Assembly: GCA_024123955.1 (NCBI GenBank)
Contig: CP099652.1
Span: 3,224,001 to 3,288,000 of the forward strand
DNA: 64,000 bases
Direction of reading: 5' to 3'
Source of the DNA: Oxalobacteraceae bacterium OTU3CINTB1
GTDB lineage: Bacteria; Pseudomonadota; Gammaproteobacteria; Burkholderiales; Burkholderiaceae_D
The position numbers and the translations under genes were made by a program. The notes beneath the pieces were generated by a model. The model was not told the DNA's origin. It saw only the letters and a program-made list of their open reading frames with translations, and did no database searches. Numbering within the stretch: position 1 is the first letter of the stretch; every line of letters starts with the position of its first letter. Shown in pieces: positions 5,149 through 26,860 of this stretch.

Positions 5149-6581
5149 ATTTCCTGCAAACCGTGCTGGCGTTTGTCGTCTGCCTCGGCTCCCTGATCGT
5201 CTTCCACGAATTGGGGCACTACCTGGTGGCGCGCTGGTGCGGCGTCAAGGTGCTGCGCTTCTCGGTCGGCATGGGCAAGGTCGTGTGGTCGCGCCGCTTC
5301 GGCCCCGACCAGACCGAATGGGCCGTGTCGGCGCTGCCGCTGGGCGGCTACGTCAAGATGCTCGACGCCCGCGAGGGCGACCTGACGCACCTTCCGCCGC
5401 AGGACCTGAAGCGCGAGTTCACGCGCCAGAACGTGTGGAAGCGCATCGCTATCGTCGCCGCCGGCCCGCTGGCCAATTTCCTGATCGCGATCGTGCTGTT
5501 CGCCGGCCTGTACATGTATGGCGTGGAAGAGCCGGTCAGCAAGATCAGCGTGCGCGCCAGCGAGGTGGCCGTGCTGGCGACCGACGCTACGGTGGCAACG
5601 AACGACGCCGATGCGGGGCAGGGCAAGCAGGCCGCCTCCGCCACGCCCGCGTGGCAGGCCGGCCTGCGCAGCGGCGACCTGGTCACCGCCATCAACGAAC
5701 AACCGGTGACCGTCTGGTCCGAGCTGCGCTGGAACCTGATGCAGTCGGCCATCGACAAGAAAGAAGCGCGCCTGACGGTCGAACGTCCGGGCGAGGGCCG
5801 CCGCCACTTCGTGCTGCCGGCCGACGTGCTGGCCGCGCTCGACCTCGACGGCGACGTGCTCGGCAAGCTGGGCCTGGGCGTGGCGCGGCCGGCGCCGGTG
5901 GTGCAGCAGGTGCTGCCGGGCGGCGCGGCCGAGCGCGCCGGCCTGCGGATCGGCGACCTGCTGCTGTCGGTCGGCGGCACGCCGGTGGCCGACGGCATCG
6001 CCTTCATCGACATCATCCGCGCCTCGGCCGGCAAGACGGTGGACGTGGTGGTGCGGCGCGCCGGCCAGCCGGTCACACTGGCCGTCACGCCCCAGGCCGA
6101 GCAGGCAAAAAGCGGCAAAGGAACTGTAACAGTCGGTAAGATCAGCGCTTACGTCGCTTTGCAGCCGGATATGATCGTCGTGCCATCGTCGCCGCTCGAG
6201 GCGGTGGGCAAGGCCATGGCCCGCGTCTGGGACACTTGTACGATGACGCTGAAGATGATCGGCAAGATGATCGTCGGCGAGGTCTCGCTCAAGAACGTCA
6301 CCGGCCCGATCACGATCGCCGATTACGCCGGCCAGACCGCGCGCATGGGCGTGGTCAGTTATTTAAGCTTTATCGCCTTCATCAGCATCAGTTTAGGGGT
6401 CATGAATTTGCTACCGATTCCGGTTCTAGATGGGGGGCATTTGCTGTATTATTCGCTGGAAGTTTTAACTGGGCGTCCTGTGCCGGAACGTTTTAACGAG
6501 ATTGCACAGCGAGTTGGCATCGGTTTGCTGATGACGTTAATGCTGTTGGCGGTATTTAACGACGTCGCCCGGCTTTTATAA
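5145..6581 (+). CDS. rseP: RseP-type site-2 intramembrane zinc metalloprotease
   Basis: Inner-membrane protease that cuts anti-sigma factors and signal-peptide remnants within the membrane (site-2 step of the sigma-E pathway in E. coli). The zinc motif HELGH is at residues 21-25 in the first membrane helix, and the third ligand region PIPVLDGG lies near residue 429. Two PDZ modules sit between (about 115-220 with an Ala/Asp-rich insert, and about 245-320). The length, 478, is slightly above the roughly 450 usual. It overlaps dxr by four bases and precedes bamA. Base composition falls near the 3' end. It is a plausible processing enzyme for the anti-sigma factor at 24.5-25.3 kb, though this is only an inference. 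Confidence 0.96.
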
Positions 6582-22345: not shown

Positions 22346-23050
22346 TTAAAACGCGTAGGTCAGCCCAAGGCTCCAGGATCTGGGCGGGTGCACCGGATAA
22401 AGTGCATAGCGCCGGCCGTCATCCTGCACATATTCGCGGGCGATCTGCACCGTCCAGTTACCGAACGGGATGCCGACGCCAAGGCGCGCGTCGATGCGCG
22501 AGGACGTCGGAATGCCGGGCCAGTAGCCGCCGCTGATGTTATGCAGCACGCCCGCGTGGGCGATCAGGTTGAAGCGCGGATGCACCGGGTAGAAGGCGCT
22601 GACCTCCGCATACACGGTCTTCACCGGAAAGCCCAGGTACTTCGGCGAGTAATAGATCCGCGTGCTGCCGCGCTCGAAGCTCAAGCCGGCGTAGCATTCC
22701 GAGAAGTCGTTCTGGTGCGCCTGCGTGTAGGTGATGCGGCTGCAACCGGCCTCCCAGCTACCACCCGACTGCAGGCGTCGCGCATAGCCGGCGTAGCCTT
22801 GCAGCTTGTAGCCTTCGGCGTCGCCGATGGTCATGGCGCTGGCGAACCCGCCCAGATACCATCCCGCCACGCCGTCGATATTGACCGTGACCTGCGGCAC
22901 GGCGTTGCCCTTGCCGGGGTTCTGTCCGCGATACCGGTACTCCGACTGCAGCGCCACGCTGCCGCTGATATCCATCTCCGCCTGCGCGCGCGCCGGCGGC
23001 GCCAGCGCGCAGAGGCAGGCGAGGGCGAAGGCCGCGCCGGGTAACGTCAC
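22346..23050 (-). CDS. TorF-family putative outer-membrane porin
   Basis: Predicted small beta-barrel of 234 residues: signal peptide (ALACLCALAPPARAQA), then alternating strands with SGSVALQSEYRYRGQN and GYARRLQSGGSWEAG. It ends in SLGLTYAF with the C-terminal Phe typical of outer-membrane barrels. The pattern matches the conserved family called TorF/gcw_chp putative porins; the transported solute is unknown. I start at GTG 23050, which overlaps the protease stop as GTGA. A start at 23128 would put a non-signal-like stretch before the signal peptide. It is the last gene of the sigma-factor operon. Confidence 0.8.
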   Translation of the reverse strand: MTLPGAAFALACLCALAPPARAQAEMDISGSVALQSEYRYRGQNPGKGNAVPQVTVNIDGVAGWYLGGFASAMTIGDAEGYKLQGYAGYARRLQSGGSWEAGCSRITYTQAHQNDFSECYAGLSFERGSTRIYYSPKYLGFPVKTVYAEVSAFYPVHPRFNLIAHAGVLHNISGGYWPGIPTSSRIDARLGVGIPFGNWTVQIAREYVQDDGRRYALYPVHPPRSWSLGLTYAF

Positions 23051-24549
23051 TGGGTGGCGCCGCGCTGGGTCAGTTTGGCTGGGCAGCGGCAGCTGCAATG
23101 GTCGATAAGATGGGAGATGGTGGCGCATGCGTCAATATTAACAGCGTTCAACACTTCTGGCGGTTGCAGCATACGCCGCAACTGGGCGGGCGTGGCGCCC
23201 GGTTGCAACTCACCCAGCAGCGCCAGCATGCCGGAAACGTGGGCCGCCGCGTACGAGCTGCCGCTGACGAAGGACCAGCGCGCGCCCGGCGCGGTGGTCG
23301 GCACGTCGTTGCCCGGCGCGAATAGCGGCCGCTCCAGGCCGGCCGCCGCCGCCGTCTGCTCCATCAGCGCGGCCGCGCTCACCGGCGCGAAATTGCCGGA
23401 TACCTTTACGCTCGGCTGCGAGGCCACGGCCAGCACGCCGCGATGACTGGCAGGGAAGGTCGGCGCGCTCGCCTGCGCGTCCACCGCCCCGACCACGCCG
23501 ATGCCGCGCTGGAGCGCGACGTCCAGTAAACGGTCCAAAAGCCTGTCGGGCGGACCGGACAGGCTCAGGTTGATGACTTTGGCGCCGTTGAGGATCGCGT
23601 AGTTGAGCGCCTTGCTCAAGGTGAAGCTGTTGCAGCGGGTGCTTTGGTTGGGCAGTTGCCAACAGGCCCGCAAGCCCATCAATCTGGCCTTGGGCGCCAC
23701 GCCGAGGATGCCGCCGTTGCCGCTGCGCGCCGCGATGATGCCGGCCACGGCGGTGCCGTGGATTTCCGGCGGCGGCTCGCCATTGTCGACGAAGTTGGCG
23801 TTGACCGCCAGTTGCCCCTGCAGATCCGGGTGGCTGCCGTCGATGCCGCTGTCGATCACCGCGACCCGGACTTCGCGGCCGGTGGTGTAGCGGTGCAGGT
23901 CGGAGACATGCCAGTAGCGCGCGGCTGGTTGCACCGGATACAGCACGTCGGCGGCGCCGGCCCCTGCGCCGGGCGGCAAACCTGCCACCGGCACGACCGG
24001 ATTCGTCGATGCGGCCGGTGCGACCTGCGGCCCGGCGTTGCCGCCGGGAGCTCCGCGGGGCGCCTGTTCGGCCATGCCTTCGAACCTGGCCACCGGTTGC
24101 GCCCATTCAACCTGGGGATCGCGCGACAGCTGCTCGATGATCAGGCCGGCGTCGGCGTCGTCCTTGTAGCGCATCACGTAGCAATCGATGCCGAGCAGCG
24201 ACATGGCCCAGCCTTCGACCACCGTCATGCCGTGCTGTTGCGCCAGCGCTTCGGCGCGGCGCCGGCGTCCGCCGCTGCCGCTGTCGTCCATGTAGCGGCC
24301 GCCGTAGGTGGCGTCCGGACGGTAGTGCGTGGCGGGCAGGCGCAGCATCACCAGCAGCTGGTTGGCGCCCGGATCATGGGCGCCGTCGTCGGCGGGCGGC
24401 AGGATGCGTTCGTCGCCCGCCGGCGGCGCGGCGCTGGCTGCGGGAGCGGCTGCTTGCGGCTCACCGGCGCGTGCCAGGACGGTGCCCGCCGCCGCCGGTG
24501 CCAGCACGGCGGCGAGCAAGGCGGCCAGCACGATGGCGCGCGCGTTCAA
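23047..24549 (-). CDS. Subtilisin-like serine protease (S8) with N-terminal pro-domain
   Basis: Exported S8 protease of 500 residues. A signal peptide or anchor (about 5-26) and an Ala/Pro linker precede a pro-domain-like region (about 62-155, NQLLVMLRL to EWAQPVARF) and a catalytic domain (about 215-465). The triad is Asp233 in VAVIDSGIDGSHPDL, His264 in HGTAVAGI and Ser432 in SGSSYAAAHVSG. Two oddities appear: the usual Pro after the Ser motif is Ala, and the oxyanion-hole Asn seems replaced by Asp357 (VVGAVDAQ). The C-terminal tail is Cys-rich. The start is TTG 24549, overlapping the anti-sigma stop (TTGA); upstream codons are not protein-like. The substrate is unknown. Confidence 0.88.
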   Translation of the reverse strand: MNARAIVLAALLAAVLAPAAAGTVLARAGEPQAAAPAASAAPPAGDERILPPADDGAHDPGANQLLVMLRLPATHYRPDATYGGRYMDDSGSGGRRRRAEALAQQHGMTVVEGWAMSLLGIDCYVMRYKDDADAGLIIEQLSRDPQVEWAQPVARFEGMAEQAPRGAPGGNAGPQVAPAASTNPVVPVAGLPPGAGAGAADVLYPVQPAARYWHVSDLHRYTTGREVRVAVIDSGIDGSHPDLQGQLAVNANFVDNGEPPPEIHGTAVAGIIAARSGNGGILGVAPKARLMGLRACWQLPNQSTRCNSFTLSKALNYAILNGAKVINLSLSGPPDRLLDRLLDVALQRGIGVVGAVDAQASAPTFPASHRGVLAVASQPSVKVSGNFAPVSAAALMEQTAAAAGLERPLFAPGNDVPTTAPGARWSFVSGSSYAAAHVSGMLALLGELQPGATPAQLRRMLQPPEVLNAVNIDACATISHLIDHCSCRCPAKLTQRGATQ

Positions 24550-25304
24550 GGTGTGCCGCCGTCGTCGAGCGCCTCGGCCAATTTGACGGCAGGATCGGCG
24601 CGCAGCGCTTGCAGCGCGCGGTCGCGGTTTTCTTGCGGCACGCTGATCAGGTAAGCGTCGGTCACGGTCGGGCCGTCGACCACGCGCGCGCCTTGTGCTT
24701 GCAGGATGCGCCGCAGTTCGCGTTCGGTGGTGGTGGGCTGGAACATCACCACCAGGTTGCCGACCGGACTGGCGCCGATACTGTTGCCCAGCACGCGATA
24801 CGCGGGCGGGGCCTCGTCCGGACGCGCCAGCAGCGCGACCAGGCCGATGATCAGCACCCATTGCGCGGCCACCGCCCAGCGCAGCCAGATCGGCTGGTTG
24901 GCCGCGCCCATGGCCCACCAGCGCCGCGGCACCACCGGCGCAGGCGCAGGCGCATCGGCCAGCGGCTTGGCATCGGCGGCTGGCGCGATCGTGGCACTGC
25001 CCGTCGGCGCCGGGTTGGCGCGCAGCGGGGCATCGTCAATCTCGTCCACCGGGCCCAGCGCGGGCAAGATCCGCGCCCACGCACGCTCCATGTCCACACC
25101 CGGCGGCAGGGCGGTGTCGGCGCTCCCTTGGTCCAGCATCTCGCGCTCCCATTGCAAATCCTGACGGCATTGCTCGCACGTGTGCAGATGCGCTTCCACG
25201 CGGTGCGCGTCGTCCGGTTCCAGTTGCGATGACGCATACCACGGCAGCAGCTCCTGCACCGCCTGGTGAGCCGGGACATCCAGTCTGAAGACTCGCCCGT
25301 TCAT
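24546..25304 (-). CDS. Zinc-finger anti-sigma factor with single membrane helix
   Basis: Membrane anti-sigma factor of 252 residues. The cytosolic N-terminus has a zf-HC2-type ZAS motif (His39, Cys43, Cys46 in AHLHTCEQC). A Pro/Ala linker, one membrane helix (about 141-160) and a periplasmic domain of about 90 residues follow. That domain reads as beta-alpha-beta-beta-alpha-beta (NLVVMFQP, ELRRILQAQGARVV, DAYLISVP, RALQALRADPAV) and resembles the pro-domain of the protease encoded next. ATG 25304 overlaps the sigma stop as ATGA. It presumably holds the upstream ECF sigma factor inactive until cut. Confidence 0.87.
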   Translation of the reverse strand: MNGRVFRLDVPAHQAVQELLPWYASSQLEPDDAHRVEAHLHTCEQCRQDLQWEREMLDQGSADTALPPGVDMERAWARILPALGPVDEIDDAPLRANPAPTGSATIAPAADAKPLADAPAPAPVVPRRWWAMGAANQPIWLRWAVAAQWVLIIGLVALLARPDEAPPAYRVLGNSIGASPVGNLVVMFQPTTTERELRRILQAQGARVVDGPTVTDAYLISVPQENRDRALQALRADPAVKLAEALDDGGTP

Positions 25305-25885
25305 CGCCCGTTCTCTCTCTCGTTCCACAACAAATCCTTCAATCTGTGCCGCGCGTGAAACATCCGGGTTTTGACCGTGTTCACCGGACAATCGACCACT
25401 TCAGCGATGTCGCTGTAGGCCATCTCATGATAATAGGTTAGCACCATCACCGCGCGCTGTGCGGCGGGCAACTGATCCAACGCCTCGGCGACCGTGTTCT
25501 GCAGTTGCAGGCGGGTGATCGTCTGCTCCGGCTGGTTGCCGCTTTCATCCTCGTACAGCGACGCATCGGACTCCACCGGATCGTCGCTGCCGCGCAAGCC
25601 CTTGAGGGTCTTGCGGTAGGCGATGGCGAAAATCCATGTGGAAGGTTTGCAACTGCCGTCGAAGGTCTCGGCTTTTTGCCAGACCACCAACATGGTGTCG
25701 TTGACAATTTCCTCGATCAGTGTGGCATTGCGGGTCATCCTTCCGATAAAGCGCGACAGGCGCGAAAAATAACTTCGGTACAACTGTTCGAACGCGGCAC
25801 GATCCCCGCCCGCTATCCTGCCCAGCAGGCACGCCTCGTTCGCATCCGGTAATGAGCCCGTCGACAGGCCCTGTGATTGACGCAT
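25301..25885 (-). CDS. ECF-type RNA polymerase sigma factor
   Basis: Extracytoplasmic-function sigma factor of 194 residues with region 2 (about 30-95, FEQLYRSYFSRLSRFIGRM, then EEIVNDTMLVVWQKAETFDG) and region 4 (about 125-185, LDQLPAAQRAVMVLTYYHEM, then VNTVKTRMFHARHRL). ATG 25885 is preceded by GGAGG; the frame is open 27 codons upstream but lacks sigma features. It is first in a four-gene operon with its anti-sigma factor, protease and porin. ECF factors usually drive their own operon; I could not identify a convincing promoter in the 147-bp gap to the divergent sirtuin gene. Confidence 0.9.
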   Translation of the reverse strand: MRQSQGLSTGSLPDANEACLLGRIAGGDRAAFEQLYRSYFSRLSRFIGRMTRNATLIEEIVNDTMLVVWQKAETFDGSCKPSTWIFAIAYRKTLKGLRGSDDPVESDASLYEDESGNQPEQTITRLQLQNTVAEALDQLPAAQRAVMVLTYYHEMAYSDIAEVVDCPVNTVKTRMFHARHRLKDLLWNERENGR

Positions 25886-26032
25886 CCGCCATCCTCCATT
25901 GTTTGCCGTAGATGCCGTTCCGCCGACAAATGGTTCTACTAAACAGTAAATATATATGCGCAACAAGCGGTAAGCGGCGATGCCGGGTCAAAACCTGTCC
26001 ATCCCGCATGCTACCACCCGGATTCGGCTACC

Positions 26033-26860
26033 ATGGCATTCATGAACCTGAACGCCCACATCGACCAGCTGCAAACGTTTTTACACCAGCACCGGCGCGT
26101 GCTGGTCCTGACCGGGGCCGGCCTCAGCACCGACTCCGGCATCCCCGACTACCGCGACAAGGATGGCGTCCGGCGCGGCCGCACGCCGATCCAGGGCCCG
26201 GATTTCCGCCGCGACGAAAGCGTGCGCCGCCGTTACTGGGCGCGCAGCATGGTCGGCTGGCCAACATTGGCGCAGGCCGCGCCCAACGTCGGCCACCGCG
26301 CGCTGGCCGCGCTGGAGGAGGCCGGCCGCATCGACGGCTTGATCACGCAAAACGTCGACGGCCTGCACCAGCGCGCCGGCAGCCGCAATGTGATCGAGCT
26401 GCACGGCAATATCCACGGTGTTGTCTGTCTGGACTGCCGGCGGGTCGTCGAACGCGCCGCGATCCAGACGGAGTTGCTGGAAGCGAATCCCGGCCTGTTC
26501 GCGGTCGACGCCGAGGTGCGGCCCGACGGCGACGCCGAGGTCGAGCTCCAGGCGTTGCAGCACTTCCATGTGCCGGTGTGCGCACATTGCGGCGGCACCC
26601 TGCAGCCGGATGTGATCTTCTTTGGGGATAATATTCCGGCAGAGCGCACCGCCAACGCGCTAGCCATGATGGAGCACGCCGACGCCTTGCTGGTGGTCGG
26701 TTCGTCGCTGATGGTATTTTCGGGCTACCGCTTTTGCAAGCTGGCGGCCGCTGCGGGCAAGCCCATCGCGGCGATCAACCTGGGCAAGACCCGCGCGGAC
26801 GACCTGATCGGACTGAAGGTGGAGGCGGCCGCGGCGGACGTGCTGCCGCGCCTGGTGTAA
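26033..26860 (+). CDS. NAD-dependent protein deacylase, sirtuin family (class II/SIRT4-like)
   Basis: Sirtuin of 275 residues that removes acyl groups from lysine using NAD. The motifs are complete: LTGAGLSTDSGIPDYRD (NAD fold), TQNVDGLH, the catalytic His in IELHGNIHG, and the structural zinc site CLDC ... CAHC. FFGDNIP and VVGSSLMVFSGYRF follow. The arrangement and the roughly 45-residue spacing between cysteine pairs recall class II bacterial sirtuins rather than CobB. ATG 26033 and ATG 26042 are both possible; the longer is given. It is divergent from the sigma operon and converges on the FlgO-like gene. Confidence 0.93.
   Translation: MAFMNLNAHIDQLQTFLHQHRRVLVLTGAGLSTDSGIPDYRDKDGVRRGRTPIQGPDFRRDESVRRRYWARSMVGWPTLAQAAPNVGHRALAALEEAGRIDGLITQNVDGLHQRAGSRNVIELHGNIHGVVCLDCRRVVERAAIQTELLEANPGLFAVDAEVRPDGDAEVELQALQHFHVPVCAHCGGTLQPDVIFFGDNIPAERTANALAMMEHADALLVVGSSLMVFSGYRFCKLAAAAGKPIAAINLGKTRADDLIGLKVEAAAADVLPRLV

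Follow-up and report, generated by a model that had tools for sequence, protein, structure and literature searches.

How might the release of an extracytoplasmic function (ECF) sigma factor be coupled to a protease in the periplasm? This question is raised by a four-gene operon of Oxalobacteraceae bacterium OTU3CINTB1, located at 22346–25885 on the minus strand of the window, that is, the 64,000-nucleotide stretch of contig CP099652.1 (positions 3,224,001 to 3,288,000) that was analysed and whose numbering is used throughout. Its genes encode, in order, the sigma factor, a membrane anti-sigma factor, an S8 (subtilase) protease and a putative porin. The original prediction, made from the letters of the DNA, had described this operon and proposed that the periplasmic domain of the anti-sigma factor mimics the pro-domain of the protease; the genes and their coordinates were correctly given. 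We found that the two domains share a predicted fold, that they appear related by sequence profile in the protease branch of the window, and that their genes are widely paired. Tentatively, and with slightly less than even confidence, we suggest that the anti-sigma domain docks on its cognate protease as a trans-acting pro-domain, the state of the protease setting sigma release (site-1 cleavage, then RseP), and that the system is autoregulated. The features of the operon are as follows.

25301..25885, minus strand: ECF sigma factor, 194 amino acids (P0003); PF08281 and PF04542 above cut-off
24546..25304, minus strand: membrane anti-sigma factor, 252 amino acids (P0001); zf-HC2 and PF22148 above cut-off
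25164..25262, minus strand: zinc-finger anti-sigma (ZAS) part, residues 15–47; zf-HC2 (PF13490)
24825..24890, minus strand: predicted transmembrane helix, residues 139–160; AlphaFold2 helix, hydrophobicity judged by eye
24549..24764, minus strand: periplasmic prodomain-like domain, residues 181–252, reaching the protein C-terminus; PF22148 and AlphaFold2 model
23047..24549, minus strand: S8 (subtilase) protease (P0002), TTG start at 24549; PF00082 at 107.6 bits
24076..24366, minus strand: pro-domain of the protease, residues 63–159; AlphaFold2 model
23107..23910, minus strand: catalytic domain of the protease, residues about 215–482; PF00082, oxyanion-hole Asn not conserved
22346..23050, minus strand: TorF-type putative porin, GTG start at 23050; TIGR02001 at 64 bits (cut-off 47.15) and PF09694 at 48 bits (cut-off 24)

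The Pfam families on the operon are sigma-70 regions 2 and 4, zf-HC2, Peptidase_S8 and Gcw_chp. Each junction is a four-base start/stop overlap (ATGA, TTGA and GTGA), the TTG start of the protease overlapping the stop codon of the anti-sigma gene and the GTG start of the porin that of the protease gene. By domain and gene position the anti-sigma factor is classed as ZAS type: PF13490 scores 33.9 bits, zf-HC2 occurs in 35 of 35 related anti-sigma factors (set A2, E ≤ 0.1), the gene lies directly 3′ of the ECF sigma gene, and RslA and ChrR are among the structural matches of the model. In that model (AlphaFold2) a helical N-terminal part is followed by the helix 139–160 and then by the periplasmic domain. 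The protein database held 366 relatives at E ≤ 0.001, and the named organisms among the 120 listed are mainly Duganella and Rugamonas.

Is the periplasmic domain like a subtilase pro-domain? The sequence motifs quoted for both proteins in the original prediction occur in the stated order, and the structure prediction that it had suggested as a check gave a beta-alpha-beta-beta-alpha-beta fold for both domains. In the anti-sigma model the elements are strand 184–188, helix 194–203, strands 207–210 and 217–221, helix 224–236 and strand 240–245, with 10-residue means of the predicted local distance difference test (pLDDT) of 81–97 over 181–250. PF22148, the family of the Fervidolysin N-terminal pro-domain, scores 28.3 bits on the anti-sigma factor (cut-off 21), and subtilisin prosegments rank first among the PDB structural matches of the domain. 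At E ≤ 0.1 the same family was detected in 32 of the 35 relatives of set A2, in 7 of 25 more distant anti-sigma factors with an S8 gene (A6) and in 2 of 8 without one (A5). The pro-region of the protease was modeled with strand 65–71, helix 87–106, strands 109–117 and 122–129, helix 135–143 and strand 148–153; its pLDDT means are 88 at 61–70, 49–59 at 71–90 and 85–97 over 91–160. PF22148 reaches a sub-threshold 14.9 bits here and E ≤ 0.1 in 10 of 36 related proteases. In the model, the pro-domain is placed relative to the catalytic domain in the manner of pro-subtilisin (3whi aligned over model residues 63–480).

The protease itself is an S8 subtilase as judged from its domain and its Asp/His/Ser triad, and its activity is uncertain. 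PF00082 was found in 36 of 36 related proteases, in all of which the triad D234/H265/S433 (P0002 numbering) is invariant. Active subtilases usually have an oxyanion-hole Asn. The window's protease has GAVD where AAGN is expected, and its branch has residues such as GAVD or ASAD there with the triad kept (set A3, loci L077–L099). From motifs and scores we assigned the S8 proteins to group I, the window's kind, without the oxyanion Asn, and group II, long proteins with frequent proline-rich N-terminal parts and AAGN in most of the rows shown. The triad is present in both groups wherever the aligned pieces are complete.

The anti-sigma domain aligned with the pro-domain at an hhalign score of 26.7 (probability 47%); the highest of 200 column shuffles was 16.7, and reversing the columns gave 11.4. 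With 28 group I anti-sigma domains and 56 group I pro-domains the score rose to 30.3 (probability 66%; highest of 40 shuffles 15.4). Group I domains against 20 group II pro-domains gave 20.5 (probability 9%; shuffles at most 14.7). These scores indicate that the two domains are related in the window's branch, group I.

Does the pairing of the two genes extend beyond the window, as the original prediction had asked? Two anti-sigma patterns, of which one was taken from the domain itself, were scanned against GTDB genomes and matched 45 close loci, which leave 41 readable ones when L042 and L044 (contig ends too soon) and L045 and L046 (match to the ZAS part alone) are set aside. An S8 gene adjoins the anti-sigma gene in 41 of 41, and in all of them an in-frame protease start codon overlaps the anti-sigma stop by four bases. 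A search starting from the protease listed 38 places in 399 Burkholderiales genomes (up to four candidates scored per genome): 18 of 18 places above 300 bits adjoin an anti-sigma place, as do 7 of the 20 weaker ones. Starting from the domain, we fetched 40 of 46 places at the level of the order, 20 of 24 at that of the class and 21 of 31 (in 20 regions) at that of the phylum. Four of these 80 regions lack the domain, with S8 in none of the four, and in three of the other 76 (L088, L162 and L165) the contigs end. Among the 73 assessable places, several of which share a genus and are hence not independent, S8 adjoins the domain in 27 of 35 (order), 13 of 18 (class) and 18 of 20 (phylum), or 58 in total. 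In the 6.87 Mb genome of the window there are ten matches to S8, representing about nine genes, so that an S8 neighbor by chance would be rare. The pairing of the anti-sigma domain with S8 is widespread. As to gene order, S8 lies upstream of sigma at L177 and L180, and at L184 an anti-sigma frame on the opposite strand stands between sigma and S8.

Several observations weigh against reading the domain as a pro-domain mimic, and they bear on its main rival, namely that it is a general ferredoxin-like periplasmic sensor of some other signal, that the S8 protease is an output of the sigma regulon, and that the resemblance is that of a common small fold. The anti-sigma domain against the catalytic domain of the protease gave 21.7 (probability 5%), which also exceeds the shuffles, and unrelated ferredoxin-like chains lie within 1 Z of the prosegments in the structural match. 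The 18 group II domains scored 15.8 against pro-domains I (shuffles up to 15.7) and 15.5 against pro-domains II (shuffles up to 16.3), and 13 domains from S8-less places scored 16.0 (up to 18.4) and 16.3 (up to 15.2), respectively; every one of these probabilities is below 2%, at shuffle level, while the sets of anti-sigma domains are mutually homologous (probability above 99%). As far as the profiles tell, the resemblance is clear in one protease branch alone, and a resemblance in all branches was dropped. Furthermore, 15 of the 73 assessable places have no adjoining S8, and the original prediction had counted operons lacking one of the two domains as evidence against itself; such operons exist, as a minority. 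A caspase-like gene (PF00656) stands in the place of S8 at L106:5883-6848 (plus strand), L111:4953-5756 (minus) and L166:5081-6475 (plus), and caspase-profile matches lie farther away at the S8-less L110, L115 and L191. Genomes G489 and G710 (loci L151 and L157) have no S8 of the window's family at E ≤ 1e-10 despite a group-I-like domain; the anti-sigma factors at these two loci have a longer tail. With these two genomes and the 15 S8-less places, a strict need of the domain for an S8 partner was dropped. A protease gene as regulon output has a precedent in Sinorhizobium meliloti, where, according to a passage in PMC6180224, overexpression of RpoE6 (ECF26) induces the adjacent SMa0142, beside which we saw no such anti-sigma domain. 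Set against the sensor explanation are the adjoining S8 genes in most places, the group I profile relation far above the shuffles, and the Pfam search at E ≤ 1, in which the sole other family over the domain is DUF5733, at 12.4 bits far short of its 27-bit cut-off. We regard this rival as serious though rather doubtful.

If the domain does imitate a pro-domain, how would its end be placed? The structural alignment matches anti-sigma residues 181–249 with prosegment residues 7–74 (65 residues aligned), and with the offset taken from the ends of the aligned ranges Pro252 would correspond to about residue 77, with which the prosegment (77 residues) ends, and Glu244 to about residue 69. Glu69 of the prosegment caps a subtilisin helix. 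Glu occupies position 244 in 25 of 30 group I domains (Asp in one more), in 0 of 20 group II domains (8 of them unaligned there), in 5 of 15 S8-less domains and in 1 of the 16 others. Counted from Val240, the C-terminal tail is 13 residues long in 32 of 35 anti-sigma relatives, and it ends in Pro in 27 of 35; as a general feature the 13-residue tail was dropped, the range being 10–16 in the wider group I and 8–12 in group II. Passages in PMC10580911 describe propeptide C-termini as entering the active-site cleft in a product-like manner and an altered potency of POIA1 and YIB2 when the last six residues are swapped, and a study named in its reference list concerns a Pro at the C-terminus of the Tk-subtilisin propeptide that lowers binding. 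By that precedent docking here may be weak and reversible, or else the terminal Pro argues against this mode of docking. The same paper, in a passage on mesophilic subtilases, makes the propeptide both chaperone and inhibitor, and from this it might be supposed that the anti-sigma domain is a membrane-held folding chaperone acting in trans, as pro-domains do in cis, with the gene overlap favoring coupled translation. The protease keeps its own predicted pro-domain, so that a second is not obviously needed, and we find this supposition very improbable.

Autoregulation of the operon is suggested by a promoter-like motif upstream of the sigma gene.

25912..25936, minus strand: candidate promoter of ECF type for autoregulation, GAACC-N16-GCAT, located 26 bases upstream of the start codon of sigma

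Of 39 related loci, 36 have the pattern GAAC[CT]-N16/17-G[TC]A[TC], which was chosen after inspection of the upstream sequences, ahead of the sigma gene, against a background of 0.022 per 290 nucleotides; an earlier, stricter form of it is present in 26. With a longer pattern and up to three mismatches, the site of the operon is the single match in its own genome. A looser pattern had 26 matches, compared with 14 in the control, of which one was at two mismatches; real targets cannot be separated from noise here, and the idea of a wide regulon was dropped. Along with gene order and overlaps, predicted folds and conserved pairing, the conserved motif is computationally established, and it supports autoregulation. 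Covariation between the anti-sigma domain and the protease is suggestive only, the genes being inherited together: given sigma (38 loci), the partial Mantel correlation is 0.27 for anti-sigma domain and catalytic domain (4 of 999 permutations as high), 0.15 for ZAS part and catalytic domain (49 of 999) and 0.16 for anti-sigma domain and pro-domain (56 of 999).

For the second cut a candidate lies elsewhere in the window.

5169..6539, plus strand: M50 site-2 protease (RseP type), outside the operon; PF02163 at 240.9 bits

What follows on docking, on inhibition and cleavage, and on which way the switch works is inferred. The ECF sigma/anti-sigma module would be self-contained and autoregulated, and its periplasmic sensor, the subtilase-pro-domain-like domain, would dock in trans on its cognate S8 protease in the periplasm. 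The anti-sigma factor has a free C-terminus, which lies near that of a processed prosegment and could slot into the active-site cleft as a product does. Sigma would stay bound as long as the protease is engaged, whether by its own pro-domain, by the anti-sigma domain or by another substrate. Once there is more free mature protease than docking sites, the protease would cut the anti-sigma factor at site 1, and a second cut by RseP would release sigma to induce its own operon. The original prediction had proposed that the anti-sigma factor may be inhibitor, bait or substrate, protease activity setting sigma release. This interpretation agrees with the fold match, the profile relation in the window's branch, the pairing and the site-2 protease gene, and it does not hold as far as strict pairing is concerned.

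A simpler account would make the protease a plain site-1 protease and the domain a degradable bait without pro-domain-like inhibition. It is served by the conserved gene pairing, by the RseP-type gene and by the single predicted membrane helix of the anti-sigma factor; it leaves unexplained, for the window's branch, the pro-domain resemblance and a tail of fixed length, and the keeping of the anti-sigma factor in S8-less operons counts against it. We consider it unlikely.

The porin is a lineage feature. It lies directly 3′ of the protease gene in 39 of 41 close loci versus 9 of 40 wider places, and as a necessary part of the module it was dropped on these counts. Divergent from the sigma gene is a Sir2-like reading frame (named by eye) at 26033–26860 on the plus strand.

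The finding is wider than could be told from one locus, and the mimicry is clear in one branch alone. A broader claim, for which our confidence is limited, is that a class of sigma switches across Pseudomonadota senses the activity of a dedicated periplasmic protease through a pro-domain mimic on the anti-sigma factor, the protease being inhibited by the domain and finally destroying it. If so, the exchange of partners (another S8 branch, caspase-like proteases) would point to a modular design for protease sensing, and protease activity, read through a pro-domain mimic, would be added to the means by which bacteria translate events at the envelope into transcription. Many anti-sigma factors have neither a known site-1 protease nor a known signal; this operon supplies a candidate protease together with a candidate docking domain, which has a known inhibitory fold and occurs in environmental bacteria of many genera.

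Is such a system known? The original prediction knew of none of this form, and we found no description of a prodomain-like anti-sigma factor in the literature searched; ECF re-classification tables may list the S8 neighborhood. Term searches of the RIP (regulated intramembrane proteolysis) reviews PMC10202637 and PMC7593790 returned neither subtilisin nor subtilase. An ECF sigma gene beside an S8 gene is already known from S. meliloti: parts of PMC6180224 describe rpoE6 as divergent from the serine protease gene SMa0142, an arrangement widely conserved among ECF26, liken the C-terminal domain of EcfR to RsiW and term the activation mechanism hypothetical. The pSymA reading frame L195:7423-8832 (minus strand; unannotated record), taken by its position for SMa0142, scores 106.9 bits on the S8 profile; of the reading frames in the presumed rpoE6 stretch, none matches the window's anti-sigma domain at E ≤ 1. 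The RpoE6-EcfR6/SMa0142 system is like the window in the adjoining protease gene and unlike it in the divergent orientation of that gene and in having no match to the prodomain-like domain. ECF54 sigma factors likewise have subtilase domains in their genetic context, and a passage in PMC8999054 proposes control without an anti-sigma factor for them. Subtilase pro-domains (PF22148; the subtilisin BPN′ prosegment, 1spb) resemble the anti-sigma domain in predicted fold, length and C-terminal register; they are part of their protease, whereas the window's domain sits on a membrane anti-sigma factor from a separate gene and its relatives usually end in Pro. POIA1 and yeast proteinase B inhibitor 2 are stand-alone prosegment-like fungal inhibitors, outside any transcription-control protein. 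With RIP of the RseA/DegS/RseP type the window shares the ECF sigma factor, an anti-sigma factor with one predicted membrane helix and a site-2 protease gene, and it differs from other anti-sigma factors so controlled by having a subtilase of the S8 family, encoded in the same operon, as the candidate for site 1.

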